Shown: in pieces, positions 3,819-62,300 of the stretch
Layout: every line of letters starts with the position of its first letter
Numbering within the stretch: the stretch's first letter is position 1
Source: Lineus longissimus
Taxonomy: Eukaryota > Nemertea > Pilidiophora > Heteronemertea > Lineidae
DNA: 64,000 nucleotides
Assembly: GCF_910592395.1 (NCBI RefSeq)
Contig: NC_088324.1
Span: 9,760,953 to 9,824,952 of the forward strand
Direction of reading: 5' to 3'
Notes under the pieces: model-generated
What the model saw: only the letters and a program-made list of their open reading frames with translations
Databases searched by the model: none
What the model was told of the DNA's origin: nothing
Program-made: the position numbers and the translations under genes

Positions 3819-4919
3819 TTAGGTGCATTTTCTTCCACAGTTGAAAACTTTCTTCAATTCCTCCTGGTAAAATTCTAGCGATATCGTATAAATCACGAAA
3901 TTAACTCCGTAATTGACTGTAGTGAGTGCTGTAGCAAAACCTCCCAATTCTGTCAAAAAATCAATGTAGGCTAAACTACGTCCTTGAAAACCTGTGACGG
4001 ACTCATAAAAGTAATAGGACCATGTTCCCACAAACGGTGACAGAAGTACGACATATGTTATCGATACTGCGAGAAGATTAATCAAACACCGCATCTCCTT
4101 CTTTGACATGGTTTGGCCCTTTGAAGCGGATCTTAGTGTTTTGTCCTTTGAGCATATTCCGATGACGATGATGGTGTTCAAAACACAGATGATGATTGAA
4201 GGCCCTACTTGTATCAAAGTGAAAACTTGTACCGCAGCTGTGACTAGGAACCAACTTGGCTTTTCAGAAGGCTCAAAATGACACTGGGGTCTGTAGGGCC
4301 TACCAGGGGGCAACTTATCAAGAATTCTGTTAACATACGCCATGTCGATCCAAAGAATTAGGGAACTTATGAGAAGAAAAACGAGGACAAGCTTTCTTCG
4401 TTTCGGAGTGGCGATACTGGCTGTTCTCAGTGGAAACAAGACCGCAATGGTTCTTTCCATTGAAAAAGCAATGATTATCCAAGCAGACATGAACTGGCAA
4501 TTAAACCAGACATAGGTCAAGATTTTACATTCGATATCAGTCCTGTTTAAAGATAGGACTATTCGACGGTTAGACATATAATAGATGCTTAGCTGCTGAT
4601 TTACGTGGTAGAGACAGGTGAGGTTTCCCAAGTCGGATACCGCCAGACATCCAAGATAGACAGCGCTAGCGTTGTCCCTCTTTCTCTGGCGAATGAAGAT
4701 AACTATACTCATGATGTTTCCTAAAATACCAAGATTCATGAAAATTATTACGAGATATCCGCCAAATACTGTGACGAATTCATAGAAAGAAGCGAAGTTA
4801 GTCAGATCTTCAACGATGTCAGCTGTTGATAAGGCAATCGAGGTGTTGTCACTTTCTTGTGTCATTCCACCAAGTGTGTTTCCGATATTTGTTCCGTTTG
4901 GGTTGGATTCCGTTTGCAT
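3819..4919 (-). CDS. class A GPCR, tandem copy B
   Basis: Second copy of the receptor, same length and topology, with about 24 amino-acid differences from copy A. Distinctive residues are in the first extracellular loop and start of TM3 (LYHVN, NRTDIECKILT), an Arg replacing Lys after the TM3 FPL motif, and a changed C-terminus ending CGRKCT. The TM3 Glu-Arg pair, TM7 NFVIY and the ECL2 Cys are kept, so nothing looks disabled. The ATG at 4919 follows the same upstream in-frame TAA as in copy A. The 3' flank (about 3300-3818) is shorter and very different from the 3' flanks of copies A and C, which match each other closely. This copy therefore has a separate duplication or deletion history. 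Confidence 0.88.
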   Translation of the reverse strand: MQTESNPNGTNIGNTLGGMTQESDNTSIALSTADIVEDLTNFASFYEFVTVFGGYLVIIFMNLGILGNIMSIVIFIRQRKRDNASAVYLGCLAVSDLGNLTCLYHVNQQLSIYYMSNRRIVLSLNRTDIECKILTYVWFNCQFMSAWIIIAFSMERTIAVLFPLRTASIATPKRRKLVLVFLLISSLILWIDMAYVNRILDKLPPGRPYRPQCHFEPSEKPSWFLVTAAVQVFTLIQVGPSIIICVLNTIIVIGICSKDKTLRSASKGQTMSKKEMRCLINLLAVSITYVVLLSPFVGTWSYYFYESVTGFQGRSLAYIDFLTELGGFATALTTVNYGVNFVIYTISLEFYQEELKKVFNCGRKCT

Positions 4920-5315
4920 GTTTTCAGATGGGTTGGTTCCCACAAAGTTTTAAGCCTTATGCAAATGTGTTACCTGCCATAAACCACCTAAATTCATTGC
5001 TTGAAGTCAATTGAGTGTTGTTGGTTGATACTCTGATCAACAGAACCAATGCGTGTTCATCTGGCTCAGAACGCAATTTAAAATTTGAAGCATCTCCAAT
5101 CATTCTAGTAATTTGTCCACATGGAAAAAAAGTCTCAACAAGCTTCCTGTTACCTGAAAATGTTCTGAGGAAAAAGTTGTTATTTTTGTTACATCTCAAT
5201 AATGATATTCCCGTAGGCTATTCTGTGAACATGATTTTTCAGTAGCATGTCATGCACATCATGGAAATTTCGTGTTGGCCTTTTGCTTAATGTAGGTTTT
5301 CTGTCACAGAAGAAT

Positions 5316-6529: not shown

Positions 6530-7630
6530 TCAGATGCATTTTCTTCCACAGTGGAAAAATTTCTTCAATTCCTCCTGGTAAAATTCTAGCGATATTGTAT
6601 AAATAACGAAATTAACTCCGTAATTGACTGTAGTGAGTGCTGTAGTAAAACTTGCCAACTCTGTCAAAAAATCAATGTAGGCTAAACTACGTCCTTGAAA
6701 ACCTGTGACCGACTCATAAAAGTAATAAGACCATGTTCCCACAAACGGTGACAGAAGTACGACATATGTTATCGATACTGCGAGAAGATTAATCAAACAC
6801 CGCATCTCCTTCTTTGACATGGTTTGGCCCTTTGAAGCGGATCTTAGTGTTTTGTCCTTTGAGCGTATTCCGATTATGATGATGGTGTTCAAAACACAAA
6901 TGATGATTGAAGGCCCTACTTGTATCAAAGTGAAAACTTGTACAGCAGCTGTGACTAGGAACCAACTTGGCTGTTCAGATGGCTCAAAATGACACCGGGG
7001 TCTGTAGGGCCTACCAGGGGGCAACTTATCAAGAATTCTGTTAACATACGCCATGTCGATCCAAAGAATTAGGGAACTTATGAGAAGAAAAACAAGGACA
7101 AGCTTTCTTCGTTTAGGAGTGGCGACACTGGCTGTTTTCAGCGGAAACAAAACCGCAATGGTTCTTTCCATGGAAAATGCAATGATTATCCAAGCGGACA
7201 TGAACTGGCAATTAAAACAGACATAGGTTAAGAGCTTACACCCCAGATCAGTCGGGTTTAAAGATAGGACTATTTGACGGTCAGACATATAATAGATGCT
7301 TAGCTGCTGATTTACATCGTAGAGACAGGTGAGGTTTCCCAAGTCGGATACTGCCAGACATCCAAGATAGACAGCGCTAGCGTTGTCCCTCTTTCTCTGG
7401 CGAATGAAGATAACTAGACTCATGATGTTCCCTAAAATACCAAGATTCATGAAAATTATTACGAGATATCCGCCAAATACTGCGACGAATTCATAGAAAG
7501 AACCGAAGATTGTCAGATCTTCAACGATGTCAGCTGTTGATAAGGCAATCGAGGTGTTGTCACTTTCTTGTGTCATTCCACCAAGTGTGTTTCCGATGTT
7601 TGTTCCGTTTGGGTTGGATTCCATTTGCAT
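6530..7630 (-). CDS. class A GPCR, tandem copy C
   Basis: Third receptor copy, intact, 366 aa from the ATG at 7630. Compared with copy A it has about 27 substitutions, of which about ten lie between residues 111 and 146 (ECL1 and the extracellular half of TM3: LYDVN, SDRQ, NPTDLGCKLLT). The intracellular ends of TM3, TM6 and TM7 are almost invariant. TM7 begins ELASFTTAL where A and B have ELGGFATAL. Flanking DNA on both sides closely matches copy A, which suggests A and C came from one large duplicated block or were homogenised by gene conversion. It is the rightmost copy; its 5' flank near 7660-7960 is followed by unrelated SINE DNA. Confidence 0.88.
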   Translation of the reverse strand: MQMESNPNGTNIGNTLGGMTQESDNTSIALSTADIVEDLTIFGSFYEFVAVFGGYLVIIFMNLGILGNIMSLVIFIRQRKRDNASAVYLGCLAVSDLGNLTCLYDVNQQLSIYYMSDRQIVLSLNPTDLGCKLLTYVCFNCQFMSAWIIIAFSMERTIAVLFPLKTASVATPKRRKLVLVFLLISSLILWIDMAYVNRILDKLPPGRPYRPRCHFEPSEQPSWFLVTAAVQVFTLIQVGPSIIICVLNTIIIIGIRSKDKTLRSASKGQTMSKKEMRCLINLLAVSITYVVLLSPFVGTWSYYFYESVTGFQGRSLAYIDFLTELASFTTALTTVNYGVNFVIYTISLEFYQEELKKFFHCGRKCI

Positions 7631-8069
7631 GTTTTCAGATGGGTTGGTTCCCACAAAGTTTTAAGCCGTATGCATATATGTTACCTGCCATAAACCACCT
7701 GAATTCATCCTACTGCATTCACTCATACGAACGATGATTGCTTGAAGTCAATTGAGTGCTGTCGGTTGATACTCTGACCAACAGAACCAATGCGTGTTCA
7801 TCTGGCTCAGAACGCGATTTGAAACTTGAAGCATCTCCAATCATTCGAGTAATTTGTCCCGTGAAAAAAAGGCTCAACAAGCTTCATGTTACCTTATGTT
7901 CTGAGGAAAAAAGTTGTACTTTTTGTTACACCTCCATAATGATATTCCCGTAGGCTATTCTTTGAACATGAGTTTTCAGTAGCATATTATGCACATCATG
8001 GAAACTTCGTGTTGGCATTTTGCTTCATGCCAAACCAGCTGACAAATACCCTAAAATGTCATCCTTTTG

Positions 8070-16662: not shown

Positions 16663-16975
16663 TTATATCTCTCTATCCTTAAATATCATCCTAATTTGAT
16701 TAATTGTCACAAAAGTTCCTTTTGGTTCTCAATGCCTTTCAAATATTTTGAGCCATTGTTCTGGAGCTGTTGTCCTCACTGATATATGCGTGTAATCTCT
16801 CTTCTTTTGCGTCAAAACTCTTCAAATAGACATTGATCTGTGCACAGTTGCTCCTGTGTCTGTTTATGCTTTCAGTCATCTGTTGATGTGTTGCAGTGAT
16901 GCAACGAAATCTGCAAATTAATGTATGAAAATAAATGATCAAAAGGATAAAGAAAGATTGTGTCTCTTTGTTTCT

Positions 16976-18380
16976 TTTACACATCTTTGGAGCACAGAAG
17001 CAAGTGGAGGAAGATTGTCCTGGTTCTATCGAGGAGGATGCTGCGTCACTCAATACAGCACTTCTTGATGGACAGTATAGTAGAGACCACCAGCCCAGAT
17101 GGGGTTAATATCGCCATAAAAATTGAATACTCTCCCAAACGATGAAAATTCCAAAAAAAAAAATATTCCCACGGTCTAAGCCAAACGGGTTGCAAGGGTT
17201 AATAAATAACCAACCTTGTACCCAAGATCAAAAAATGAAAATTGCAGGTGTAATGTATCAAGAAGTTTTCAACTTTTTCCTAGGAACAAGGTTTCCATTA
17301 ACCCTATCATCCCGTTTGGCTCTGACCGTGGGAATATTTTGTTTTTGCAAAATTTCTGCCTTATGAATAGGATGCACCTTTTTTTCTCAAAATTAACCCC
17401 CTCTGTGTGGAATCGTTGCCTATCAGTTGTACGTTCCTTTTTCACATCTCTGGAGCACAGAAGCAAATGGAGGAAGAATGTTATGGGTTCCAAGGAGGAG
17501 GATACTGCGTCACTCAATACAGCACTTCTTGACGGACAGTATAGTAGAGACCACCAGCCCAGATGGGGTTAATATCGCCATAAAAATTGAATAATCTCCC
17601 AAACGATGAAAATTCCAAAAAAAAGAATATTCCCACGGTCTGAGCCAAACGGGTTGCAAGGGTTATTAACCAACCTTGTACCCAAGATCAAAAAATGAAA
17701 ATTGCAGGTGTAATGTATCAAGAAGTTTTCAACTTTTTCCTAGGAACAAGGTTTCCATTAACCCTATCATCCCGTTTGGCTCTGACCGTGGGAATATTTT
17801 GTTTTTGCAAAATTTCTGCCTTATGTAAAGGATATACCTTTTTTTCTCAAAATTAACCCCCTCTGTGTGGAATCGTTGCCTATCAGTTGTACTTTCCTTT
17901 TTCACATCTCTGGAGCACAGAAGCAAATGGAGGAAGAATGTTATGGGTTCCAAGGAGGAGGATACTGCGTCACTCAATACAGCACTTCTTGACGGACAGT
18001 ATAGTAGAGACCACCAGCCCAGATGGGGTTAATATCGCCATAAAAATTGAATAATCTCCCAAACGATGAAAATTCCAAAAAAAGAATATTCCCACGGTCT
18101 GAGCCAAACGGGTTGCAAGGGTTATTAACCAACCTTGTACCCAAGATCAAAAAATGAAAATTGCAGGTGTAATGTATCAAGAAGTTTTCAACTTTTTCCT
18201 AGGAACAAGGTTTCCATTAACCCTATCATCCCGTTTGGCTCCGACCGTGGGAATATTTTATTTTTGCAAAATTTCTGCCTTATGTAAAGGATATACCTTT
18301 TTTTCTCAAAATTAACCCCCTCTGTGTGGAATCGTTGCCTATCAATTGTACTCTCATGGGATGAGGATGCTGCGTCACTC
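16976..18380. repeat. 460-bp tandem array containing a hairpin
   Basis: Three copies with starts about 460 bp apart (near 16981, 17443, 17903) and a short fourth fragment near 18363. In each unit a 28-bp arm starting AATATTCCCACGGTC (for example 17626-17653) is inverted at about 17771-17798, with one mismatch, enclosing about 117 bp. A MITE therefore seems to have been amplified within the satellite. Open minus-strand frames of about 82 aa recur only because the DNA is repeated. Confidence 0.85.
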
Positions 18381-28329: not shown

Positions 28330-30836
28330 TACCCTCTAGGTTGAATTCTTCATAAACTCTCCTCAGGTGTCAACTGAGTAACAAGAAGGGGACTCTTATG
28401 GAGGAGGAGGAGGTTAAGTTACCCTCCCCTCTAGGTTGGATTCTTCATTAGCTCTCCACATGTGTCAACTGAGTAACAAGAAGTGGACTCTTATGGAGGA
28501 GGAGGAGGTTAAGTTACCCTCCCCTCTAGGTTGGATTCTTCATTAACTCTCCACATGTGTCAACTGAGTAACAAGAAGGGGACTCTTATGGAGGTGGGAG
28601 AGGCTTAGTTACCCTCCCCTCGAAGAGGAATTCTTCCAAAACTCTCCACTGGTGTCAACTGACTAAAAGGAAGGGAACCAATATGGAGGGGGAAGAGGCT
28701 AAGTTACCCTCTAAGTAGGAATCTTCATAACCTCTCTCCATTGTGTCAATAGAATAACAAGAAGTGGACTCTTATGGCGAAGGAAGAGGTTAAGTTACCC
28801 TCCCCTCTAGGTAGGATTCTTCATAAACTCTCCACATGTGTCTACTGAGTTACAAGAAAAGGACTCTTATGGAGGAGGAAGAGGCCAAGTTACCCCCCCC
28901 CCCCCTCTAGGTAGGATTCTTCATAAACTCTCCACAGGTGTCTACTGAGTTACAAGAAAAGGACTCTTATGGAGGAGGAAGAGGCTAAGTTACCCTCCCC
29001 TCTAAGTAGGATTCTTCATAAACTCTCCACATGTGTCAACTAAGTAACAATAAAGGGATTTTTATGGAGGGGGAAGAGGCTAGTTACCCTCACCTCTAGG
29101 TAGGATTCTTCATAAGCTCTCCACATGTGTCAACTGAGTAACAATAAAGGGATTTTTATGGAGGGGGAAGAGGCTAGTTACCCTCCTCTCTAGGTAGGAT
29201 TCTTCATAAACTCTCCACATTGTGTCAACTAAGTAACAATAAAGGGATTTTTATGGAGGGGGAGGAGGTTAAGTTTCCCTCACCTCTAGGTAGGATTCTT
29301 CATAAACTCTCCACGTGTGTCAACTGAGTAACAAGAAAGGGACTCTTATGGAGGGGGAGGAGGTTAAGTTTCCCTCACCTCTAGGTAGGATTCTTCATAA
29401 ACTCTCCACATGTGCCAACTGAGTAACAAGAAGGGGATCCTATGGAGGGGGAGGAGGTTAAGTTACCCTCCCCTCTAGGTAGGATTCTTCAAAAACTCTC
29501 CACATGTGTCAACTGAGTAACAAGAAGGGGATTCTGATGGAGGTGGAAGAGGCTTAGTTACCCTCCCCTCGAAGAGGAATTCTTCCAAAACTCTCCACAG
29601 GTGTCAACTGACTAAAAAGAAGGGAACCAACATGGAGGGGAAGTTACCCTCTAAGTAGGATTTTTCATAAACTCTCCACAGATGTCTACTGAGTAACAAG
29701 AAAAGGACTCTTATGGAGGAGGAAGAGGCCAAGTTACCCTCACCTCTAAGTAGGATTCTTCATAAACTCTCCACATGTGTCAACTAAGTAACAATAAGGG
29801 GATTTTTATGGAGGGGGAAGAGATTAAGTTACCCTCACCTCTAAGTAGGATTCTTCATTAACTCTCCACATGTGTCAACTAAGTAACAAGAAAGGGACTC
29901 TTATGGAGGGGAGGAGGTTAATTTACCTTCACCTCGAGGTAGGATTCTTCATAAACTCTCCACAGGTGTCTACTGAGTAACAAGAAGGGGATTCATATGG
30001 AGGGGGAGGAGGTTAAGTTACCCTCCTCTCTAGGTAGGATTCTTCATAAACTCTCCACATGTGTCAACTGAGTAACAAGAAAGGGACTCTTATGGAGGGG
30101 AGGAGGTTAATTTACCTTCACCTCGAGGTAGGACTCTTCATAAACTCTCCACATGTGTCAACTGAGTAACAAGAAAGGGACTCTTATGGAGGGGAGGAGG
30201 TTAATTTACCTTCACCTCGAGGTAGGATTCTTCCAAAACTCTCCACATGTGTCAACTGAGTAACAAGAAGGGGACCCTTATGGAGGAGGAAGAGGCTAAG
30301 TTACCCTCCCCTCTAGGTAGGTAGGATTCTTCAGAACCTCTCTCCATGTGTCAACTGAGTAACAAGAAGGGGACTCTTATGGAGGAGGAAGAGGCCGAGT
30401 TACCCTCACCTCTAAGTAGGATTCTTCCTAAACTCTCCACAGGTGTCAACTGACTAACCAGTGACTAACCAACTGACTAACCAACTGACTCTCCATGTGT
30501 CAATTGAATAACAAGAAGGGGACTCTTATGGAGGAGGAAGAGGCTAAGTAACCCTCCCCTCTAGGTAGGATTCTTCATAAACTCTCCACACGTGTCTACT
30601 GAGTTACAAGAAAAGGACTCTTCTGAAGGAGGAAGAGGCTAAGTTACCCTCCCCTCTAGGTAGGATTCTTCATAAACTCTCCACATGTGTCTACTGAGTT
30701 ACAAGAAAAGGACTCTTCTGGAGGGGAGGAGGTTAAGGTACCCCACCTCTAGGTAGGATTCTTCATAAACTCTCCATATGTGTCAACTGAGTAACAAGAA
30801 GGGGATTCTTATGGAGGGGGAGGAGGTTAAGTCTTG
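28330..30836. repeat. about 95-bp minisatellite, about 26 copies
   Basis: The unit runs TTACCCTCCCCTCTAGGTAG, GATTCTTCATAAACTCTCC, ACATGTGTCAACTGAGTAAC, AAGAAGGGGACTCTTATGG, then a GGAGGAGG-rich piece. Copies differ by point changes and 1-3 bp indels, and groups of neighbours share variants (for example the ACAATAAAGGGATTTTTATG subtype near 29040-29250). That pattern indicates local block duplication. The unit is not a multiple of three and contains stops. Confidence 0.93.
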
Positions 30837-33800
30837 GAGATAAAGATTCTCACAAGGAGCTGACCCAATATAATATAGCCTTCGAAATAGAGATTCTCAC
30901 ATGGGACTGATTTATTGTAACCTTGGAGATGTAGTTGCTCACAAGGGCCTGATATACTGTGAGCCTTGGAGATAAGGATTCTTCACAGGGGGTTGATAGA
31001 CTAGAAGGCTTGGAGGTGAAGATTCTCACAGGGGACTAATATACTGTAACCCATTGAGATGAAGATTCTCACAAGGGACTAATATAATGCAGGCCTTGTG
31101 GATAAAGATTCCCACAAGGGACTGCTATGATTCTTGTAGATGAAGGTTCTCACAGGTGATTGACATACTGTAACCCATTGAGATGAAGATACATGTACTT
31201 ACAAAGGGACTAATATCTTGTGAACCTTTGAGATTAAGATTCTCACAAGGGAATGATATACTGTAGGTCTTGGAGATAAAGATTCTCACAATGGAATTAT
31301 ATACTTTAAGCCTTGGAGATGAAGATTCTGCAGACAAGGGACTGATATACATACTGTAAGCCTTTGAGATTAAGATCGTCAAAAGGGAATAATATAATGC
31401 ATGCCTTGTAGAGAATGATTCTCACGAGGGGCTGATATACTGTAACCTTGGAGATGAAGATTCTCACCAGAGACTGATATACTGTAACCTTGGAGATAAA
31501 GATTTAACAAGGGGATGATATACTTGTAAGTCTTGGAGATAAAGATTCTCACAAGGGACTGATATACTGTAAGCCTTGGAGATGAAGATTCTCACAGGGG
31601 ACTTATATAATGCATGCCTTGTAGATAAAGATTCTCACAAGGGGCTGACATACTGTAGCCTTTGAGATGAAGATTCTCACAAGGGACTGACATACTGTAA
31701 CCTTTGCGATGCAGTTTCTTACAAGGGATTGACATATGGTAGGCCTTGGAGATAAAGATTTTCACAAGGGGGTAATATACTGTAGGGCTTTGAGATGAAG
31801 ATTCTCACAAGGGACTGATTACTGTAAGCCTTTGAAATGATGATTCTCACAAGGGGGGCGATATACTGTAGGACTTGTAGATAACGATTCTCACGAGGAA
31901 ATTTTATACTGTAAGCTTTGAAGATGAAGATTCTCACAAGGGACTTTTTACTGTAGGCCTTTGAAATGAAGATTCTCACAGGGCCTGATATACTGTAAGC
32001 CTTGGAGATAAAGATTCTTCACAGGGGGGTGATAGACTAGAAGGCTTGGAGGTGAAGATTCTCACAGGGGACTAATATACTGTAACCCATTGAGATGAAG
32101 ATTCTCACAAGGGACTAATATAATGCAGGCCTTGTAGATGAAGATTCCCACAAGGGACTGCTTTGATTCTTGTAGATGAAGGTTCTCACAGGTGATTGAC
32201 ATACTGTAACCCATTGAGATGAAGATACATGTACTTACAAAGGGACTAATATCTTCTGAACCATTGAGAATAAGATTCTCACAAGGGAATGATATACTGT
32301 AGGTCTTGGAGATAAAGATTCTCACAATGGAATTATATACTGCAAGCCTTGGAGATGAAGATTCTGCAGACAAGGGACTGATATACATACTGTAAGCCTT
32401 TGAGATTAAGATTCTCAAAAGGGACTAATATAATGCATGCCTTGTGGAGAAAGATTCTCACAAGGGGCTGATATACTGTAACCTTGGAGATGAAGATTCT
32501 CACCAGAGACTGATATACTGTAACCTTGGAGATAAAGATTTAACAAGGGGATGATATACTTGTAAGTCTTGGAGATAAAGATTCTCACAAGGGACTGATA
32601 TACTGTAAGCCTTGGAGATGAAGATTCTCACAGGGGACTAATATAATGCATGCCTTGTAGATAAAGATTCTCACAAGGGGCTGATATACTGTAACCTTTG
32701 CGATGCAGTTTCTTACAAGGGATTGACATATGGTAGGCCTTGGAGATAAAGTTTTTCACAAGGGGTGATATACTGTAGGGCTTGGAGATGAAGATTCTCA
32801 CAAGGGACTGATTACTGTAAGCCTTTGAAATGATGATTATCACAAGGGGTGATATACTGTAGGACTTGTAGATAACGATTCTCACGAGGAAATTATATAC
32901 TGTAAGCCTTGAAGATGAAGATACCTCACAAGGGACTTTTTACTGTAGGCCTTTGAAATGAAGATTCTCACAAGTGGGTGATATACTGTAGGCCTTGGAG
33001 ATGAAGACTCTGCAGACAAGGGACTGATTCTTCATAACCTCTCTCCATATGTCAACTGAGTAACAAGAAGGGGGTTCTCATGGAGGAGGAAGAGGCTAAG
33101 TTACCCTCACCTCTAGGTGGGATTCTTCATAAAATCTCCACATGTGTCAACGGAGTAACAAGAAGGGGACTCTTATGGAGGGGGAGGAGGTTAAGTCTTG
33201 GAGATAAAGATTCTCACAAGGGGCTGACTCGATATAATGTAGCCTTTGAGATAGAGATTCTCACATGGGACTGATATATTGTAACCTTGGAGATGTAGTT
33301 TCTCACAAGGGCCTGATATACTGTAAGCCTTGGAGATAAAGATTCTTCACAGGGGGGTGATAGACTAGAAGGCTTGGAGGTGAAGAATCTCACAGGGGAC
33401 TAATATACTGTAACCCATTGAGATGAAGATTCTCACAAGGGACTAATATAATGCAGGCCTTGTAGATAAAGATTCCCACAACAAGGGACTGCTATGATTC
33501 TTGTAGATGAAGGTTCTCACAGGTGATTGACATACTGTAACCCATTGAGATGAAGATACTTACAAAGGGACTAATATCTTGTGAACCATTGAGGTTAAGA
33601 TTCTCACAAGGGAATGATATACTGTAGGTCTTGGAGATAAAGATTCTCACAATGGAATTATATACTGTAAGCCTTGAAGATGAAGATTCTGCAGACAAGG
33701 GACTGATATACATACTGTAAGCCTTTCAGATTAAGATTATCAAAAGGGACTAATATAATGCATGCCTTGTAGAGAAAGATGCTCACAAGGGGCTGACTCG

Positions 33801-35440
33801 ATACTGTAGCCTTTGAGATGGAGATTCTAACATGGGACTGATATACTGTAACCTTGGAGATGAAGATTCTCACAAGGGACTGATATACTGTAAGCCTTGG
33901 AGATGAAGATTCTCACAAGGGACTAATATAATGCATGCCTTGTAGATAAAGATTCTCACAAGGGGCTGATATACTGTAACCTTTGAGATGAAGATTCTCA
34001 CCAGAGACTGATATACTGTAACATTTGCAATGTAGTTCCTTACAAGGGATTGACATACCGTAGGCCTTGGAGATAAAGATTTTCACAAGGGGGTGATATA
34101 CTGTAGAGCTTGGAGATGAAGATTCTCACAAGGGACTAATTACTGTAAGCCTTTGAAATTATGATTCTCACAAGGGGGTGATATACTGTAAGCCTTGAAG
34201 ATGAAGATTCTCACAAGGGACTTTTTACTGTAAGCCTTTGAAATGAAGATTCTCACAAGTGGGTGATATACTGTAGGCCTTGGAGATGAAGATTCGGCAG
34301 ACAAGGGACTGATTCTTCATAACCTCTCTCCATATGTCAACCGAGTAACAAGAAGGGGCTCTGATGGAGGAGGAAGAGGCTAAGTTACCCTCATCTCTAG
34401 GTAGGATTCTTCATAAACTCTCCACATGTGTCAACTGAGTAACAAGAAAGGGACTCTTATGGAGGGGAGGAGGTTAAGTCTTGGAGATAAAGATTCTCAC
34501 AAGGGGCTGACTCGATATAATGTAGCTTTTGAGATAGAGATTCTCACATGGGACTGATATATTGTAACCTTGGAGATGTAGTTTCTCACAAGGGCCTGAT
34601 ATACTGTAAGCCTTGGAGATAAAGATTCTTCACAGGGGGTGATAGATGAAGATTCGGCAGACAAGGAACTGATATACTCTAAGCCTTTGAGATGGAGATT
34701 CTCACAAGGGACTGATATACTGTAGGCCTTGTAGATAACGATTCTCACAAGGGAATTATATACTGTAAACCTTGGAGATGGAGATTCTTATAAGGGACTA
34801 ATATCCTGTGAACCTCGGTGATGAAGTTTCTCACAATGGACTGATATACTGTAGGCCTTGGAGATAAAGATTTTTCACAAGGGGTTGATATATTATAAGG
34901 CTTGGAGATGAAGTTTCTCACGGGGGACTAATATACTGTAACCCATTGAGATGAAGAGACTCACAAAGGATTGATATCTTGTGAACCTTTGAGATGAAGA
35001 TTCTCACAAGGGACTAATATACTGTAGGTCTTGTAGATAAAGATTCCCATAAGGGAATTACATTTTGTATATACTGTAAGCCTTGGAGATAAAGATTCTC
35101 ACAAGAGACTGATATAATGCAGATTCTCACAAGGGGCTGATATACTGTAGGCCTTTGAGATAAAGATTTTCACAAGGAGGTGATATACTATGGAAGGCAT
35201 GGAGATGAAGATTCTCACAGGGGACTAATATACGGTGAACCTTGGGGATTAAAGATTCTGACAAGGGACTAATGCACTGTATGCCCTCGAGATGCAGAGT
35301 CTCACAAGGGACTGCTTCACATTGAGGCTGGGATATAAAGATTCTGACAAAATATGTTCAGATTTTTGACATGTACAGTATGAAAATGACAACTCTGACA
35401 AAGGACTGATACTGTATCCCCTCATTCCTAATGGTACATA
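30836..35440. repeat. about 44-bp minisatellite with higher-order structure
   Basis: About 100 copies of a unit like ACTGATATACTGTAAGCC, TTGGAGATGAAG, ATTCTCACAAGGG. Larger blocks recur: a stretch including GATTGACATACTGTAACCC appears near 31155, 32190 and 33525. The array is interrupted at about 33022-33190 and 34310-34475 by two short runs of the neighbouring 95-bp minisatellite. Each switch uses the same junction bases. No protein is encoded. Confidence 0.93.
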
Positions 35441-42000: not shown

Positions 42001-45000
42001 GATCATTTTACTACGCATATCATAGCAATGATATTGCGCACATCTAAAGAGGTCATCCCTTAAAAATATCTCTTGGGACATAGGCCATTTAAACGTACTT
42101 AGTCAAACGGTCTCCCTGCGGTAGTGATCCGCGTGACCTATTAGATTTCCCGCAAATCAGATATTTGAATAATATGCTCCACAAGGAGTACTTGTAATAT
42201 GCTAGATGCCGCAAGAGGCATGTTCATTTCTGGGTACTTGAAAAAACAGTAGAATAGACTCATCTTTTTATTTGCATATACATGTACTCAAAACGAGTTC
42301 ATTCCAACGTAGAATATAGCGTAGGAATTGCTCTAGACTGGCTAAATAGAAGTGTTTATACCAACAAAAAACGCATGAAGGTTAGACAAGATTTATCCTT
42401 AGCTCACAAGGATAGCTAATTGTTTCTTGACAGAAATAAACACCCCCTCCCCCCCCCACACACACACAGCCCCCGGTTGATTCTGAGAGTGAGTTGACGA
42501 GCGCTTTGAACGACGGCCTATCCCGTCCATGGAAAAGCGCCATAAGAAACTGTACTTAGTTTATAACTTAAGATCAATGTCAAAACATATTTCAAATTAG
42601 ATTTAAATTGTCTTATCTAAATTGTTAATGCTTTTGGTTCGAGAGAAAGTGTTCATTTATCAAAAATAAAGCACTCCAGTGTGCGCAAACTTTATCAATT
42701 TTTAAATGATTATTTTGTTTCAAATTGGCAATGGTTTTATGTTGTAAAGAAAGAAGCCTCCGGCACTGATGAAACACCATACGATTTCTTTCTACTTTGT
42801 AAGCATGTATATTATCCGGCCTCTTTCTCCTCGCGAAAATCGTTTCTAAAAAATAAAATATTTACGATTCTATGTCAGGTTAAGAAACTTCGTTGTTGTT
42901 TTTGTCCAATAAGCAATATTCTCGCGATTTTAACCTACACTGTGCGTAACGAATAAAACGTTCTTGGTGGCTTTTAAAGGTCCCAAAGGATTGATCATAT
43001 TGATAGGTCCCTAGTGTCATTATCAAACTGCGGCAGTACTGCTTATCATTTTAGACCAATCGCCACAGGACGGCACAGAGGTCATCTCTAGGAACCACGC
43101 GGCTGAGCCGCTCAAGCCGCAGAATGCTGGGATAAACCACGCGACCATGGCGAAAAAGGAGGACCAGGACAAATCTTGGCTTGACCTTGTCTACGACTTC
43201 ACGCAAAATACAACTGTTCATGGGATTAGGTTCATTACGGATAAGGATTCCTACTGCATCAGAAGGTAGGTCAGGTGTTACAAACGAGGGGTTGCGAGAC
43301 ACTGACACGTAATACGCATCCACACTCCGCGATTTTTTGACGACGCCTGTGGAACATGACCACACTTTTAAAACAAAACCGATCGGCGAGGGCCAAATGT
43401 GGGCAAAACGTCAAATAATGTTTATAATGATGGTAATGATGATGATGTGAAACCCATTTTTTTTAGATATGGATTGTAAGAATCTTATCATGACCGCTGT
43501 TGTGGATTCCAACCTCTCTGTTTACTGTGCTTGAAGTACTGATTCAATGAGATAGTTTCCCGCATTGATTCAGTGCCGCCGCGGCAAAACTACACATGGT
43601 TATTAAAAACAATTGAAGATGATAAAAAATTACCCGCCGGCACGGCTGGCGACTTTTCACGATGCTTCCACATTCTGTATACTCCCCACACCAAAGCGCT
43701 AGTGGGTGATATGAACTACTGTACTTCGGATGGGTGGGAAAGGACATTCACTACATGATTATTTTTTTAACATGAATTGTTTTTCCTGAATAATATCGAT
43801 GGACGGACTTATTATTTCAATCGATTGATATATTATCTCGGTCGATCGAGATAATTATCCCGATCGCACCACAACCTATGACATGCACCGTCATTATGAC
43901 CTGCGTGAACCACCGTCGCCGGCAGGCTTGTCGTTCAACATCTGGCTGTCTTTTTATTTCTGATGTTGCTTGGCCCATAACATCTGCCTATCGTTGCATT
44001 TCAGATGTATCTGCATGTAACATCCCGTCAGCGCGTCATTTAAGATGTATCTGGGCTTGAAATATCCGGCTAGAGTTTCATTTTAGATGTATCTGGGCTT
44101 GTAATATCCGGCTAAAGTTTCATTTTAGATGTATCTGGGCTTGAAATATCCGGCTAAAGTTTCATTTTAGATGTATCAGGGCTTGTAATATCCGGCTAAA
44201 GTTTCATTTTAGATGTATCTGGGCTTGAAATATCCGGCTAAAGTTTCATTTTAGATGTACATGTATCTGGGCTTGAAATATCCGGCTAATGTTTCATTTT
44301 AGATGTTTCTGGGCTTGTAATATCCGGCTAAAGTTTCATTTTAGATGTATCTGGGCTTGAAATATCCGGCTAAGGTTCCATTTAAGATGTATCTGGGCTT
44401 GAAATATCCGGCTAAAGTTTCATTTTAGATGTATCTGGGCTTGAAATATCCGACTAAAGTTTCATTTTAGATGTATCTGGGCTTGTAATATCTGGCTAAA
44501 GTTTCATTTTAGATGTATCTGGGCTTGTAATATCCGGCTAAAGTTTCATTTTAGATGTATCTGGGCTTGAAATATCCGACTAAAGTTTCATTTTAGATGT
44601 ATCTGGGCTTGTAATATCCGGCTAAAGTTTCATTTTAGATGTAGCTGGGCTTGAAATATCCGGCTAAAGTTTCATTTTAGATGTATCTGGGCTTGAAATA
44701 TCCGACTAAAGTTTCATTTTAGATGTATCTGGGCTTGTAATATCTGGCTAAAGTTTCATTTTAGATGTATCTGGGCGTGTATCTGGCTCCTATCATTCGG
44801 CTTTGTGACCAATCAGATTGTAGACCGCGTGATCTACTTTCTCAGCGACCCAATCATGGTGAAAGTCGAGGTCAACTTCAATACAACGCTGAACTTTCCC
44901 GCCGTAGCCATTTGCAACCAAAATTCGTTCAGGTAGGCTTACCATTCTCCAGAGCAGACATGATTCAAGCATTATTCTCTCTTCAAGTATCAGCTTCCAT

Positions 45001-48000: not shown

Positions 48001-50490
48001 TTTTGTGATAACTCACTAGTTTATTCGCCACTTTCTTTTAGCACCGGTCAATATCAGAAGAAGACATCTTCCTTTTTTTGCGCAGAAATCATTGCCTTGG
48101 TTCCAGATAGGCCAATATCAAAAAGCTAAACAGACTCCTTCATATCACCACAGGTATACGCTTTGAAACGCGAGACTACACATTTAAAACACTCTCACTG
48201 CTGACAATTTCTTCAAATTCCAGAAACCAAATTGCTGCAGAGATACATCAAGGCTCGGGACACTAGTTACTTCGTGGACCATGCGCACTTCAAGGAGGAC
48301 AAAAAGTTCATCGACGATATCGCCCACCGCGCTGAGGATGTGGACAATGTCCTCGGTAAGAACCTCTCCACCATCATCACGGAACAGTTGGAGCAGATCG
48401 AGAACACTTTCGACTACGCACATGACATTCACAGTAACATGAGCCACATCTACAACTTCCAGGACTTTGTGGTCCGGATGAATTTCGTCCGTGGTGCCCT
48501 GGCGAAGGATGAGCGAACATTGGTGTCGGTTGGGAAAGGTTTCGTGGAATATATCAGGAATTTTGAGCGGAATCTCAGGTTGCTTCAGTCGTTTACTCCT
48601 GAACCGCAGAATGCCTCCAGCAGGCTGTTGCTGTATCAGACTATGAAGGATAAGCTTCTGACCAAGGCGTGGCTGGCGGAATGGGCCCAGAGAAACGTGG
48701 ACGATATTAAGAATAGCTATATGAAGGCCAAGCCGATATTCAAGTACCGCTTCGATGGCAAGACCTCAGAAGAGCACGCGCTGATCGCGCCAAGGAGTAT
48801 CCTTTACGAGTCTGTGACGAATGATCACGCTGCCGGGAGACTGGAAGATATCAGTCGTGCACTTGTCGGCGCGAAGATAGCGTACGACAACTTGACTACC
48901 ATTCTTGATGATGTCTACACAAATAACGTCTTCAATCCGTCAATCTTCGGGATGATTCGCACGGAGTACATGAAAATCATCATAGTAGTCAACGGTCTGC
49001 GGAGCGCAGTTATTGAGGACGTAGTCAGAAAACCTATTGATGTTATGAACGAAAAGATTGAAAGATTTAACCAGCTGTACAACCGCATTGACGTCCTTTT
49101 GGGCGAGATGAAACAAGATTTGAAGGTTCTGAACGAAACAGTTTCCGAACGTGACGTCATCTGGACGGCCATGTTGGATATTGTGAACAAATCGGTGGAA
49201 TATTTACAAGATATCAACATCGGGAAGACGGCTCTCTGTGGACAAATCATGTCACTTCAACTCGAGCAAAACATCGAGAAATTCGAAAGTTTCTTTGAGG
49301 TTTTGAGGTCAAGGTCACGCACTCTCAAGGACGCTTGGAACACGACGTACCAGGGCATCATCGAGTTCGTCACTAACTTTTTGGTTGACAACGACACCTA
49401 CAACTATATCACGAGTAATTGGACCTCGAGTGAGTTCTTTATGAGTATTGAGGATCTCTACAACGAAGAAGGGTTTAATAATTACTCACAGAGACTGAGA
49501 GAGGAGATTGGCCTAAAGCAACACGAGGGAGACTTAAATGCACTGTTTGGGACCAAGGACCGGACCTTTGTGGTGGCCTTGAGGAAGTATCAGGACAGTT
49601 GCCGGGAGTATCTATCTGGGAATCGTATTGATAAAAATTTCTACAGGTAATGCCCGCTGGAACTCGATCAAACTTGTTCACAAATATTCGGGGTTATATG
49701 TACATGTATAGTTGCTTGAAACCTATGATCATGATCCTCTTGTATTTTAAAATCTCATGTACACGTCACAATATTTCATTCAGTTTTCTGAAAATGCTGG
49801 TTCAGGGCCAATCCACAGAGACCATACCAGTAGGTCGCCAGTAACTTTTTTCCACCTCAGTAAATGTCATTGATAGGCATCTTGATATGTAGTACTTTTG
49901 TTGTCTTTCAGAAATAATTTCTTAAGTATGGATGTATACTTCAGTGAGCTAAATTATGAGCTCATCCAACAGCAAGCGGCCTATGATATCATTGCGTTAC
50001 TCAGTAAGTCTGCTACATTGGTCCATTTGTAAAATCTGTAAGAGATTTTGCCCCCGACTTTACTACTTTTAAGGACTACGAATATACGGAAAACTTCGAC
50101 CGAAAATCTGGACCAACTCCATTTCAATACTTACTCTCGCACTATTTTCAGTGAACGTGTTTCCAGTAAGTAATTGAGAACACTGCGAAGTTAAAACGCA
50201 TGCATGTTCTCGAAACCCGACAAATGACATGCTGCGTTTTTTATGTTTTCAAATTTTGCCTTGAAATTTCAGGTGACATCGGTGGATCACTTGGTTTATT
50301 CTTAGGCGCCAGCGCCATCAGCCTGTTCGAATTGGTAGACCTCTTCCTTTTCAACTATGCCAAAAAGAAGAAGAAAGAAAATGAGATACGACGGCGACAG
50401 AGTTTGAGCCATGAACCCCACGTGAAACCAGAACCAAATGACACGTACATAAAACCTATCATGAAACCGGCAATCAAAACCTACATGTAA
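39084..50490 (+). CDS. DEG/ENaC (ASC family) sodium channel, gene 1, complete
   Basis: Twelve exons join in frame to 992 aa: 39084-39162, 43079-43265, 44765-44932, 45320-45481, 45875-45993, 46253-46434, 46649-46808, 47091-47144, 47676-47810, 48224-49646, 49912-50003, 50273-50490. Evidence for the family: the cytosolic HG gating motif (His74-Gly75 in NTTVHGIRFITDK), TM1 at about 90-108, the post-TM1 motif FPAVAICNQNSFR, finger cysteines (200-225), the ball/finger motif GATGTHTFVGAE-like at about 290, thumb cysteines (315-350, 371-395: CKGCAPECQSTIY), then TM2 with SDIGGSLGLFLGASAIS. Gly932-Ala-Ser is the G-x-S selectivity filter. Subunits of this family form trimeric, usually amiloride-sensitive cation channels. 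Residues 416-890 are an extra, mostly helical extracellular insert. The C-tail holds RRRQSLS, a possible basophilic kinase site. Exon 1 is the least certain. Ligand or gating stimulus is unknown. Confidence 0.87.
39429..39851. mobile_element. 423-bp MITE in intron 1 of channel gene 1
   Basis: Ends are TAAAGCCCGCAGCACACTAG and CTAGTGTGCTGCGGGCTTTA, perfect inverted repeats, extended by GCCGCCAACTTCGGCG and CGCCAAAGTTGGCGGC. Internal CGCCAACTTCGGCGT and CTTGCCGCCACTTGCCGC pieces repeat. The flanking TTA/TAA suggests a Harbinger-type insertion, but no transposase is present. Confidence 0.75.
43935..44764. repeat. 42-bp minisatellite of 3' splice-site units
   Basis: From 44046 to 44764 there are 17 copies of a 42-bp unit: ATGTATCTGGGCTTG, AAATATCCGGCTAAAG, TTTCATTTTAG. 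At least one degenerate copy (44003-44045) and looser traces reach back to about 43935. The array stops exactly at 44764, where the last TTTCATTTTAG is the acceptor of the TM1 exon of channel gene 1. Each unit therefore contains a branch-point-like CTAAA, a pyrimidine-rich tract, AG, and the first 12 bases of the exon (ATGTATCTGGGC). Copy 7 has a 6-bp insertion, and copy 9 reads TTCCATTTAAG instead. Unit position 16 alternates between A and T. Confidence 0.92.
48224..49646 (+). other. 1423-nt exon encoding the channel insert domain
   Basis: This single exon of gene 1 encodes residues 416-890, from ETKLLQRYIKARD to IDKNFYR. It lies between the thumb CxxCxxxC motif and the palm strand that leads to TM2 (MDVYFSELNYELIQQ). 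ASIC-type channels have only a few tens of residues here and total about 500 aa. The segment is rich in Leu, Glu, Lys and Asn in heptad-like patterns (for example EQLEQIENTFDYAHDI, EKIERFNQLYNRIDVL), lacks hydrophobic stretches long enough to be membrane segments, and has several N-glycosylation sequons. Cysteines in ALCGQIM and DSCREYL are conserved in gene 2. No known fold was recognised. Confidence 0.85.
50273..50490 (+). other. pore/TM2 exon of channel gene 1
   Basis: It encodes residues 921-992: the DIGG turn, the GAS filter, TM2 (AISLFELVDLFLF) and a Lys/Arg-rich cytosolic tail ending at TAA 50490. The intron before it is phase 1, splitting the Ser of LLS-DIGG, as it also does after 63940 in gene 2. 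Confidence 0.88.
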
Positions 50491-50499
50491 GAGGACAGT

Positions 50500-50960
50500 T
50501 TCCTTTCCAAGTGGTTGACTTCTTACTGGTCAACTATGCAAGAAAAGGATTAAAAGAAAGGGCAGCTGATACATCAGTGCACGGCGCTGACCTAGAGTTT
50601 GAGCCACTAACACTACGGGAAAACCGAGTTCAGTTACACGAACAAACCTATAATCAAATCCGTAATTAAAGACTTCCAAGTGGTCGACTTTTTACTGTTC
50701 AAGTCTGCAAAGAAGAAAGTTTGCAGAAGGAGCCGCTATACCACAGTGTACGGCGGTGACAGAGTTTGGGCCGCGAACCCTACGGAAAACCCGACTTGAA
50801 TGACTCGTCATTGAGTTTGTCACTGACACACTAATTGACACTGATACTTATATCTATATCATGAGTAATAAGACATCAAGTGAGTAGCTGAAGAGAAATG
50901 AGGACCTTTACATTGAGGAGAGACTTCTATAATCACTCGCACAGCTCGAGAAAGACATTC
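50500..50960 (+). pseudogene. decayed duplicates of channel exons
   Basis: Just after the gene 1 stop, 50503-50665 and 50672-50815 are two diverged copies of the last exon's tail region (GTTGACTTCTTACTG, CAACTATGCAAGAAAAGG, GAGTTTGAGCC). Then 50816-50960 resembles the end of the 1423-nt exon (ACTTATATCTATATCATGAG, then AGTAATAAGACATCAAGTGA). All frames are broken by stops and indels. This is the remnant of at least one more channel copy or of partial local duplications. Confidence 0.6.
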
Positions 50961-53312: not shown

Positions 53313-56300
53313 ATGTGGGGAAGGCGAAAAGCTGAACCGGAGAAGCCCAAGGGTGGTCCCCCACTTCTTGCTCTCGCCGTGGATAAAGTTAAGGGGGAGG
53401 AAATCAATGCTAACGAGGAGACTTTGAACAAAGGTACCGTAAGCATAAAACTTTTCTGGGCAGAACTATGTAAGGTTAAGTGGTATACTATTAAAGTTCC
53501 GGTACAATTTTAGCCCCTTCAGTGTAGAAATCAGCTGGCAGAACACATTCATGCACACAGAGGCTATAATTGTACCGGGGCTATAACTGTACCTTAAATT
53601 ACCTTATCATTATTATTATGTATCTTTATTCATGTAATAATCGATTAAATTGTGGTGTGCGTATAACAAAAGAACGGAAGGTGACAAAAAGATTAACAAA
53701 TACCGTACATAACATAATTTGAATGTTTACAATAGTGCATGCTCAATGATGTACACGTACGCGCATGGTCCTCTATTGAAATTCGTTCCTTCAAAACGAA
53801 TAAATACTGTTGATTAAAGTTTCACTTCAGAGATTAAGGGCTCTGTCATAAACTTCAAATATCGGTCTTACCACTCGCTGAGGCATTCTGACTGCTCAGT
53901 TATCCAAACACCTACCATGCACCGGCACGTTTTCGCCCATTAAAATACAGTTTCTTTCCAAAACACAGAATCACCCGAAGGAAGCGATATAGGACCAACT
54001 GGAAACCGAAATGTGGAGAAAAACGAAGTCGACGATATTGATGGTGAGCTTTCGGATAATGAATTAGAAAAGGGCCCCAAATCATTGGAATATTCTGAGG
54101 TTGATGAGACAACTGATACGGAAGAACTTGATAAAATTGAAAATAATAATTTAGATTCAGAGGATGCCAGTGAGGCACCTCCAGGTGACGCAGAGGGCGT
54201 GAACAATACAGGGAACAGTATCCTGAAGGATGATCTGTCTAAAGCCCATAGGTTGCGATACACACCCAGCCCGGCATCGTCACCGGAAAAGTCTCGAACG
54301 ACGCCGCCTAGTGGGCGCGCAAGCAAACAGAGGTCAAGGCCACCCGAGGGTAAGACTCCCCCGATGAAGTACTCGGATCTTAATAAAGAGACGCCCGAAT
54401 GGCCCAGCAGGCAGACTGTTATGCAGAAACTGATTCAACCTGGGAAGAAACGGCTTCAGAAGCCTGATGAGAAGATGGTGAAGCCCGAGGATGAGAACGA
54501 GGCTGACGAGGTCAAGGTCAAAGATGAGAAAGCGAAAGAGACCACGTGGTGGGAGCTGTTTTATGACTACACGCAGAACGCGACGGTTCATGGCATCAAG
54601 TACATTACAGATAAAGACACGTATTGCTTTAGAAAGTGAGTACATGCTAATACAAAATCCATTATAAAAATGAAACATTGAAACCTAGGTGTTTGAGAAT
54701 ATCTCAGTATCTCAGTGTTGGGCTCTGTGGAATTCGAAGAAAAAAAGGTTCTTGAAAAAGCTCCTACCCTTACTAGACCTATGTGTCGAAGAGCATACTT
54801 GAACATGTTTGGAATTGTTTGTTAAATAAAGAAAACCCGGATGATTTTGCGCGATATTACGGACTCTATCAGCCAAAATGTTAGGCTTTATCAATGTAAA
54901 TGCTACTGACAGTGATTACACACCTGGGGCTGCTTCTAACGTTTTTTTACTCTTACGCAGTATGCAAGCAGGGCATTAACAGTTGATTACCAAGATTCAG
55001 GCACTCTATGTTAAAACATTTTGCGGTAAAAGAGGCTCTGGGGTGCCCAGATGCATAAAATTGTCGTGGTGAAGGGAGAGGAACAGCTTAAAATCAGATT
55101 TGAGCAATAGTCATCATATTTTATGCTGCCAAATTTCTATTTGATTATTTCGAATGGTTTGGTGCTTAATGTCTTTCTGTTGTTAAATTCGATTGCTGCG
55201 TCCATTACATAACTGAAATTGCTTACTGATTATGCAGATTGACGCTACCATCACCAGATAAGCTGTATAGATATGATGGAATTCCCAGGCCAAATATAGA
55301 CACATTTTGGGAGACCCATTGACAATGCTAAAATCTTATTCAATTTTCCAGGTTGATTTGGATGGTTATATTCCTTGTCTGCTGCGCGTACGTCACCTAC
55401 CAGATTCAAGAGAGGATCAGATATTTCCTCTCTGAACCAGTTATGGTCAAGGTCGAGGTCAACTTTAACCAATCGTTACGCTTTCCGGCTGTCGCGATCT
55501 GCAACCAGAACGCTTTCAGGTAATGGCGTCAAATATGTGGCATTTAAACTTTCGGTTTCAAAAGAAGCAGAAGGGATTTTTCGAATGTTGCAGCGTTTGA
55601 GAAGTATTCTAGTAGAACACTTCAAAATCTGTTATTACCAGCAAACGGAATCGCTGCGCACATTTCCGGCAGTTGCGATGTTCACCGAGAACGCTTGGGG
55701 TATCATCATTTGATATTAATTGATACAGAAGAATAAGGAGAGCATTCAAATACTTTATATTAATTTCATTTTGAAATGTCTTCTTTTATCTATTGCGTCG
55801 AAATCTTATAAAGTTTACGGCCACGACGAATGGACCACTCATATCACCTACTATGGTAGAGGTGGTCATCCGACCTCATACTTTAACGCGGATCTTATTC
55901 AAAAACATTTCAGTAGAACCGAGATGAGCTACTCGATTCAGAGAAGTTAATTGAGATTTGGACTGTAAATATAAAAAAACATCCATTCAGAATTTTTTTA
56001 TCTCATGTCCAGGGTGACAGAAGCAGTTCGTCTGGGATACACAGATCTACTTGATGAAATCTACAACAGAAACTACAGTCATCCATATACAGACGCAGAC
56101 CTAGTCAGGTATCCTCGAGCAGAGAATAGCATTGCTGAAATGTACAAGGACCTTGCCCATAGGAAGGAAGATGCGATAATAAGGTATATAACTGAAAAAA
56201 ATAGCCGAATCGGTGTTATAAGCTTTTTTGCACAGAAAGTCCTCGAATTGCTAAGTGTTTGAAACCATTTGGAAGAGAACATTTAAAGATTTAAAAATTA

Positions 56301-59300: not shown

Positions 59301-62300
59301 AGAGTTGTGCCGCGAGTGCCTGCCAGCATGCAGCAATGTCATCTACAACCCGACCTTCTCCTACCTCACCTCGGCCGCCCACGACATTGACCGAATCCTG
59401 GACAATATCAATCAGACGCAGTTACTGGAGCGATACGTCAGGTAGAGAAAATGCTTGAGAAAATTCGCCTGTCACCTAATGCGACTTTTTTAATGTCAAC
59501 AGAGTCATATTAATAAGTATATACATATCATTGATTCATTGTTTCGTCAGTAGAATTCACCATCAGCGGTGCAGCATAGCTAGATGGAAAGAAATCATTC
59601 TGGCCTTCACGTTTGGTCTTATAAGTGCGTCTGATAGGTACGTCACATCATCAGCTGCCCCGAAAGTAAGACGCCCCAGCCAGTGCAGTCCCGTCGATGA
59701 GGCGCCGTCGAGCCACCTGTGACCCTTCGATGTCAGTTCAACACACGATAATTGAGGAAGTTCAATTATTTCAACGGCGCCTTTGGGATGGTCGTCCCAT
59801 GTTACAGTGCAAGTTATTAAGGTCAACGCTATAAACCTTGTACTAGAGGCGAGGTTGATGGAGTCCAGGCAGTGCAATACAATGATTTTAGACTTCCTAT
59901 TAAATAAGCCAATCAAAGCCATCGATCGTCTGGTTCATGCTTGCCCGATGAAGGAAGCAATATAGACTGTTTCGAATAGAAAAGTAAGTTAATTTCGAAA
60001 AATATTCCTCAAATTGGTGAATATTAAGCGTAAGTTATCTCTATGCTTATCAGGGCACGAGATGCAACACACGCAGTAGACAAGCGCAAATTCCTCGAAG
60101 ACAAGGATTACCTGCTGCAAGTGTTGAAGCAAACAGATGTGGTGGGCGACTTACTCAACCAGAACCTCTCGGACATCGCCACGAGTAACCTGGGACGCGT
60201 CAACACCATGCTTGACTTTGCCGAGGCCATCTACAACAACATTAGCGAAGTCTATCGTTTTCAAGACTTTGTTTTGAAGTACAATTTCTTCATCGGTGCG
60301 GTGGAGTTTGACAAAAACATCCTGAACCCGCTGACGTCAGATTTCTCGCACTATATGGGGAAGTTTGAGCGGAATTTGAACTATTTACAGTATCTGGTGA
60401 TTAAGAGAGTTAATCCAAAGTCAAAGGCGCATGACACCACCAACCAGGGTGTTCCAGAGCTACTTTACAATATGATGAAGAATGAACTTGACACCAAAAA
60501 GAATATGACGGATACTGCTTTGGAGTACTTCCAGAAACTCCGACTGGCGTATGAGAAAGCCGAACCGGTTTTGAATGACAGGTACGTGTATATAAAATTG
60601 AAATATCTTGTATGATGGTGTTAGGTGGTTTGCGCCTTATCGGAAATAGTGGACTCAAATATGTGTATATAAACGTAGATATATTAGTAATGTGATCGTT
60701 GATGCTGATTAAAAAAAAGAGAATGACATTTTCTGAGAAAACCTTTTCTTTTATTCACCTTGTGTAAACGGTAGTTGATAAAGCTTGGAATCAGTGAAAC
60801 CTTGGAACCAGTGATAAACCTTGGAATCAGTCCTAAAAATGCATAAAAACATGAAATAATGCCATACGAACCTAACGTGGTTGCGAATCAACATTTGGAG
60901 CTTATTCTTACATGATCAGATCGGAATTTTATGGTAATTTAGAAATCTGTCGCATATCCGATTCAATAGTCTATATTTTAAAACAACCCAGTTGTACCTC
61001 GCCTCCAGTGTACAGTACTGATCTCCCAAATATGGGAAGACACGCCCACCACACACCCATAATATGGACCAATAGCGCTCCGCTTATAAATACGCCACCA
61101 CCACACGGGGCCTTTTCGATCAGACGAGTTGCTTGGGAAGTTGGGGGCCTGTCATGCATTATGCATGGATAAGGTTGACGACTATGTCTAGGCCTAATTG
61201 TCTATGATTGACTGATATTTTATAACAAACGATGAATAAAAGAAGCCTAGTCATGTATGTTTATCACCGAAGTTTGCGGATGAAAATTTCCTTCGCCGTG
61301 AGCGATTTCTTACATCTTCCAGTACGCATCGAGGGATGCAGAGATCTTTGTGACGTCACCAGTTCTAAGCGGGTTTTTTTATTCACGTGTGTGTTTCTCC
61401 TATGATCTCGTGCATCTGGTACCGAGCATAATACTTTATCGTCTATGGAATACAAAACAATCATAAAAACTAATTTTTGCTTCCATTGAAGAGAAATAAA
61501 ATATTTTAACGACCACAGCGCATTGCCAATTGATGACGTCATCCTCCACATTAAAAATGTTGGCTTCTGAACGAACTGGCAAATTGCTATCAATAAAGTC
61601 AGCTGGGACGAGACTGTCAGTTGGGAGGGTATAAATCGTGGAAGGAACGCACCCGATTTCCCGCGCTATTTGCACAGTGATTCCATGGTTTACATTGAAT
61701 ATTCCAAGGTTTATCAGTGTTTCCAAGGTTTCACTAATTCCATACTTTATCAACTACCTGTGTAAACGGTGCGATCAATTTTGTCCGAATTTTGTACACC
61801 TCATGCTAGTAAAGATGCTGTAGATTGTTTCCACAATCTTTGTTTGTCATTGGTGACAGGTACGTAGGCAGGACTGAAGCAGAGCATCTAGAAATCGCCC
61901 CCAAACAGGACCTGTACTACAGCGTGAAAGACATCGAGGCGGAGACCACGCTAGATAACCTCAGGGATGAACTGAGATATATCAGACGACTCTACTCGAG
62001 GTGCGTATTTTAGAGCATGCAGCTAATGCACTGGGAGGTAGGCAGAAATACGTCTCTTTGTAGTTCTAAGTTAACAGCCACGAGGACACAATGACCCTTC
62101 TTGTCCTAGATGTCACCATTCAAAACTAATTAGGGGAAGAAATGTACCAAACTTTCGTTAGAAGGTTGTTCGCTCGTGCGTTGCCCACGGAAAATAGGTT
62201 TTGATATAATTACGACTATACTCTTCCGTGGCCTATTTCTTATAAACGATGTTTTTTTGCGAGATTGGCAATAAGATAAGTTGAAGAGTAGTTCTTGGAT

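Follow-up and report, generated by a model that had tools for sequence, protein, structure and literature searches.

A tandem array of 42-bp 3' splice-junction copies at a DEG/ENaC channel exon of Lineus longissimus resembles the mirage minisatellites of amphioxus

The primary paper on the mirage minisatellite of amphioxus Adh is reportedly that of Canestro et al. 2002. Excerpts of later reports describe mirages in the amphioxus genes Adh3, BflGb6, and BflGb9, the latter two encoding globins (PMC3087553), to which PGBD5 and troponin C have been added (PMC3902484). Their units are 10-72 bp long in Adh3 and 150-160 bp long in BflGb6 (PMC3087553, PMC3902484). In the same excerpts, mirages are described as unstable in length, with somatic instability at Adh3, and a model for intron gain is mentioned; the Rogers model, in which an AG/GT proto-splice site is duplicated in tandem to give an intron, is taken up as well (PMC3087553). 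In the open-licence literature of PubMed Central, searched mostly with amphioxus-worded queries, no mirages were found outside the cephalochordates. A first-pass annotation of the nemertean locus treated here had noted an amplified intron/exon boundary and stated that no case of this kind was known to have been described; as far as the excerpts go, the mirages of amphioxus are a precedent (PMC3087553, PMC3902484).

The locus lies in a window of 64,000 nucleotides, which is the whole stretch of DNA that was analysed (C17:9760953-9824952), in a genome of L. longissimus that was searched as 391,118,348 bases in 30 contigs. The window has a GC content of 40.8%, and Rfam and tRNA scans of its 64 kb gave no matches. 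Three closely similar tandem 7tm_1 receptor genes of 376 residues, each in a single frame, are encoded at 1502-2629, 3822-4949, and 6533-7660 on the reverse strand. The forward strand carries two paralogous DEG/ENaC genes, A and B, that match the Pfam family ASC with E-values of 3.5e-38 for a part of gene A joined by hand and of 2.1e-39 for gene B. The frame of gene A was begun at the in-frame ATG at 43147, its putative start, and the end of exon 1 lies between there and 43265, followed by the donor AG/GTAGGT at 43266 (slashes in motifs mark the splice junction). Exon 2, the TM1 exon, comprises 168 nt (44765-44932) and is followed by the donor CAG/GTAGGC at 44933. The homologous TM1 exon of gene B (55352-55519; acceptor TTATTCAATTTTCCAG/G) has the same length of 168 nt and the same intron phase, and no tandem array was found by TRF in the intron that precedes it (54636-55351).

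When exons 1 and 2 are joined via 44765, the product aligns without gaps through TM1 to ASIC2 and to two ASIC1 chains (three alignments), with 100.1 bits for the top chain. The product of the nearest upstream copy of the acceptor at 44723, which is longer by 14 residues, reaches 85.0 bits at best and its alignment breaks in TM1. Differences between genes A and B at the three codon positions number 34, 24, and 79 among 139 codons drawn from portions of three exons, and this third-position excess points to a constrained coding gene. Together with the ungapped ASIC homology and the equal exon length in the paralog, it indicates that gene A keeps a functional frame through the authentic junction. 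On grounds of homology, namely intron phase, fit to ASIC channels, and exon length in the paralog, the acceptor at 44765 is well supported; this agrees with the first-pass annotation, which had chosen it by frame, phase, and paralog homology and had seen no array in the paralog intron ending at 55351.

Both genes show further peculiarities. In gene A, an open frame of 481 residues (48205-49647) separates the regions that match ASC; it has no Pfam match at E 0.01 and may be a large insertion into the extracellular portion of the channel; a similar-looking frame of gene B (60034-60612) is likewise without a Pfam match. The tail-coding region after TM2 of gene A is present in three tandem copies (50326-50352, 50505-50531, and 50674-50700), which have diverged and follow each other at intervals of about 175 bp, the open frame of each beginning with F-x-V/L-V-D-x-x-L. 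In gene B, the end of the TM1 exon (55471-55515) recurs in diverged form at 55649-55696, within the intron that follows (score 24, maximum of 16 in 1000 shuffles). Since 4 bases separate the exon-end copy from the donor at 55520, this is no duplicated splice site in its present form.

Directly upstream of the acceptor of gene A, TRF reported a tandem array at 44036-44776 with a period of 42, 17.5 copies, 93% matches, and a score of 1281. By TRF, unit anchoring, and alignment, its main part was resolved into 17 units on the forward strand (44045-44764), 16 of them of 42 bp and one of 48 bp (44255-44302) with a 6-bp insert that keeps the frame. Each unit begins like exon 2 and ends with TTTCATTTTAG or a near form of it, so that the main array presents 17 decoy acceptors. 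Further left (43937-44044) lie three diverged copies, 43937-43962 (partial, without the AG), 43963-44004, and 44005-44044, which align locally to the consensus array with a score of 36 (shuffle maximum 15), the part left of 44005 scoring 22 (shuffle maximum 11). The motif AG/ATGT anchors 18 upstream sites, at 44005 and at 17 positions from 44045 to 44723, as well as the real site at 44765, and the spacing is 42 with two exceptions, the first interval being 40 and a later one 48. In the window, the 21-mer TTTCATTTTAGATGTATCTGG has 19 matches with at most 3 mismatches, compared with an average of 0.01 in 100 shuffles. The array overlaps the first 12 bases of exon 2, and the real junction forms its last, partial copy; as a whole (43937-44776), it crosses the homology-supported acceptor into the exon, as is characteristic of mirage minisatellites.

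The main units are homogeneous, each with 0 to 3 differences from the consensus and with about 2 bases on average between one unit and another. All 17 retain the AG, 16 end exactly in TTTCATTTTAG, and one column alternates between T and A, giving TTGTAA in 7 and TTGAAA in 10 units. An arrangement of units into a three-unit higher-order repeat fell short of significance (permutation 0.128). The unit did not fold into an RNA hairpin better than shuffled sequences (z 1.00 to 1.64), its best donor-like site reached 1.1 bits and was equalled by 0.79 of random segments, and the array had no match in phage sequences. The description in the first-pass annotation of a minisatellite of seventeen 42-bp units, each with a CTAAA element and the first 12 bases of the exon, and ending exactly at the acceptor, needs small corrections only. 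The minisatellite lies where it had been placed and does contain 17 full units, but one of these has 48 bp and three diverged copies precede them. CTAAA and the 12 exon bases are found in most units, but each is exact in only 14 of 17, the exon bases 13 times at the unit start and once after the 6-bp insert. Finally, 44765 fits phase and homology, but the array does not end there and enters the exon by 12 bases.

The proposed ladder of decoy acceptors was borne out. Of the 18 upstream AG/ATGT sites, 13 do not differ from the real acceptor between positions -14 and +3, 10 between -19 and +3, and 7 between -18 and +12. With a generic acceptor matrix that is not specific to L. longissimus, the real acceptor comes last among 22 placed TM1 acceptors with 4.0 bits (others 5.6-14.5, median 9.9). 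Among nine scored decoys, six likewise reach 4.0 bits, two are lower (-0.3 and 0.8), and the site at 44005 reaches 6.6; in 43300-44764, 7 of 52 AG sites outscore the real acceptor. As the decoys nearly equal the real site in local context and score, local strength cannot pick the last copy. All 17 main decoys are in frame with 44765, and the site at 44005 is out of frame. Use of a main decoy would extend the exon from 168 nt to 210-888 nt and, for 16 of the 17, would bring in 1 to 10 stops, the first of them at codon 45, 47, 59, or 73 of the frame from 43147; the TTGAAA form of the unit makes a TGA in the TM1 frame. Only the final unit (44723-44764) would add 14 residues to TM1 without a stop. 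A role of CTAAA as a branch point is a guess from the motif, and the stretch containing it may itself be exon-derived if the similarity between unit and exon passes base 12, for which the evidence is suggestive only.

Tandem arrays are frequent in this genome. On a coarse grid of 20 x 10 kb, 15 non-overlapping minisatellites with a period of 15-200 and at least 3 copies were found in 200 kb, and at such a density chance alone should place some founding duplications on splice junctions. That splice-junction minisatellites are common in the genome was considered, prompted by donor-like motifs in this sample, and rejected. In 26 arrays, 16 from the 200-kb sample and 10 from the window, there was no general enrichment of splice motifs over random segments, with p <0.05 for donor-like motifs in 4 of 26 (mean p 0.47) and for acceptor-like motifs in none of the 26 (mean p 0.48). 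The TM1 array itself has an acceptor p of 0.59 and does not stand out because its acceptor is weak, and the test has little power for arrays of this sort. Among seven candidates inspected with their flanking frames, six from the sample and one from the window, there was no second clear array spanning a boundary. One of them, a minisatellite of four 33-bp units (L033:9812-9944), encodes an in-frame protein repeat of 11 residues. A second, an array of 12.8 units of 79 bp (L040:7069-8076), lies within an intron of a pseudouridine synthase gene and touches no exon; many of its units carry an acceptor-like ctttccctcag and a donor-like cag/gtactg. The other five had no clear exon edge, but some may yet touch an exon, as L025 has open frames of 33-40 residues and the arrays L032 and L039 are truncated at the edge of the sampled stretch. 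The window further contains a 460-bp unit in three tandem copies at 16974-18352 (96% matches, TRF) and two adjoining minisatellite blocks at 28333-30832 and 30877-35313 with units of 95/189 bp and of about 43 bp. The largest 43-bp row has about 79 copies, and the 43-bp rows have about 71% matches (TRF).

The array at the TM1 exon is likely to be a mirage minisatellite that grew from a duplicated splice junction and is probably tolerated rather than functional. A short tandem duplication that took in the 3' splice junction and the opening codons of the TM1 exon would have been the founding step, followed by growth to about twenty copies by minisatellite turnover, either slippage or unequal exchange. 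The transcript is predicted to join exon 1 to the last junction at 44765; the upstream copies would thereby be intronic and hence free to mutate, and expansion would be possible because they stay so. The last copy would presumably win by exon definition, as it gives the shortest exon and lies beside the donor at 44933. Turnover is consistent with the diverged copies at the edge of a homogeneous core, a pattern that excerpts of PMC3087553 report for the globin mirages. The sequence shows the structure of the array, the likely direction of copying, the effects on the frame, and the lack of such an array at 23 related acceptors; splicing to 44765, the mechanism of expansion, and the neutrality of the array are what we infer. 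Two points run counter to this reading: the frame and the AG are kept in all 17 decoys, which could also reflect function, although recent homogenisation explains this too; and 44765 has a local score below those of 21 other TM1 acceptors and equal to those of most decoys scored, so that nothing local explains its choice.

In the favoured reading, the exon was copied into the array. It is very improbable that the reverse took place, that is, that an unrelated minisatellite or a satellite of a mobile element entered the intron and its edge took over the start of the exon, even in a genome so rich in minisatellites and in a window with other large arrays at 28333-35313. The 12 bases common to array and exon encode R-C-I-W-A, the R-x-x-W start of TM1, and of 23 other TM1 exons examined, 21 have a start of the form AG/N NNN NNN TGG with an open frame, so that the repeated bases probably belonged to the exon first. 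This bears out the earlier suggestion that the intron/exon boundary itself was amplified. The DEG/ENaC family of L. longissimus is large; a search of the genome with PF00858 gave at least 104 matches, nine of which cover almost the full profile within a single open frame, besides many that are split. The 23 exons comprise 20 hand-picked matches with TM1 exons apparently starting after an intron (among them L060, a longer match), two loci from a DNA search, and gene B. In none of the 23 does a tandem array cross the acceptor at a TRF score of at least 40; at L041 and L054, where the acceptor could not be placed, TRF gave no array. A paralogous channel gene on C11 has an array of seven 70-bp units in the corresponding intron (L003:811-1294), which ends about 120 bp before the acceptor without spanning it. 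Against an intruding satellite also stands a DNA search of the genome, which reported no further copy of the unit and in which the query matched, besides its own locus, just two homologous TM1 exons; as the search skips simple repeats and very common words, it is not full proof against dispersal. Furthermore, the similarity between unit and exon may continue past base 12. In an anchored test, the fraction of shuffles as good was 0.008 for unit 18, 0.026 for unit 13, 0.069 for unit 0, and 0.107 for unit 17; without anchoring, unit 18 gave 0.034 and the consensus 0.175. Judged from these sequence comparisons, the exon is likely the source and the array the copy.

The array might also have been expanded or collapsed by error in the assembly, and tandem arrays are generally error-prone; in the amphioxus draft genome, the assembly of the BflGb6 mirage seemed to be aberrant, according to an excerpt of PMC3087553. 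Such an artefact is extremely unlikely here. The L. longissimus assembly is described in the available part of its report as made with Hifiasm from PacBio HiFi reads of 12-20 kb fragments (PMC8593623), which are far longer than the array, so that single reads should span its 840 bp, and the units, being about 2 bases apart on average, can be told from one another. An explanation that accepts the array but assigns it a function is unlikely, though less so: the array might be a working splicing control in which some transcripts use decoys and copy number tunes the output of the channel. Sixteen of the 17 decoys would then lead to nonsense-mediated decay and the nearest one to a 14-residue insertion in TM1. 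This would suit the observation that all main decoys are in frame, 16 with 1-10 stops and one without, that 10 of 17 units carry TTGAAA with its TGA in the TM1 frame, and that the generic matrix ranks the real acceptor last of 22, which makes competition plausible. In human IFI6 (6-16), repeat units of a minisatellite are said to be alternative splice donors, as far as a partial text of PMC4526556 goes. Frame-keeping, however, follows from a 42-bp unit without any selection, the product with 14 additional residues fits DEG/ENaC channels worse, and Adh3 data of amphioxus as well as RT-PCR of its globins suggest undisturbed splicing in the excerpts of PMC3087553. We consider it improbable as well that the array acts as a splicing rheostat, with near-identical in-frame acceptors that compete with the real one and a channel dose that follows array length among individuals and perhaps among cells; in this case, decoys upstream of the nearest are predicted to lead to decay and the nearest to a TM1 longer by 14 residues.

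A tolerated mirage at this exon would extend mirage minisatellites, which in the literature searched are confined to cephalochordates, to a lophotrochozoan; this suggests that genomes rich in minisatellites generally produce them as a by-product and that they are no oddity of lancelets. It would also be a natural experiment on splice-site choice. Most acceptors of the ladder do not differ in the last 14 or more bases of the intron and in the bases that open the exon, and the ladder could show how far position and exon definition decide which acceptor is chosen. Finally, such an array is a possible starting state for the gain of an intron or for a sliding exon start.

The array of L. longissimus shares with the amphioxus mirages a tandem repeat that spans the boundary and contains copies of the splice signal together with part of the exon. 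As in the globin mirages, copies at the edge of the cluster are excluded from homogenisation. It differs in its occurrence in a nemertean, at the TM1 exon of a DEG/ENaC gene, and in its unit of 42 bp, which corresponds to 14 codons and places every main decoy in frame. Data on splicing and instability are cited for Adh3 and the globins, whereas the L. longissimus array is known from the sequence of one haplotype; common descent of the two is not claimed. A human IFI6 minisatellite with several splice donor sites is reportedly the subject of Turri et al. 1995, and there, too, the units could supply multiple splice sites to one transcript; these are donors with reported alternative use, in contrast to the acceptors of the present array, whose use is putative. 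In tandem acceptors of the NAGNAG type and similar ones, in-frame AGs 3 bases apart compete upstream of an exon. The decoys described here resemble them as competing in-frame AG sites, but are 42 bases apart and about seventeen-fold. With the Rogers model, the array shares the joint duplication of exon and splice signal, from which a new intron or a displaced exon start could arise. In contrast to that model, no new intron is recognised, and only the 3' junction has been duplicated, many times. By its structure, the array thus belongs to a kind already described, and its phylum, the channel exon at which it lies, and its fully in-frame ladder are new to the literature searched.
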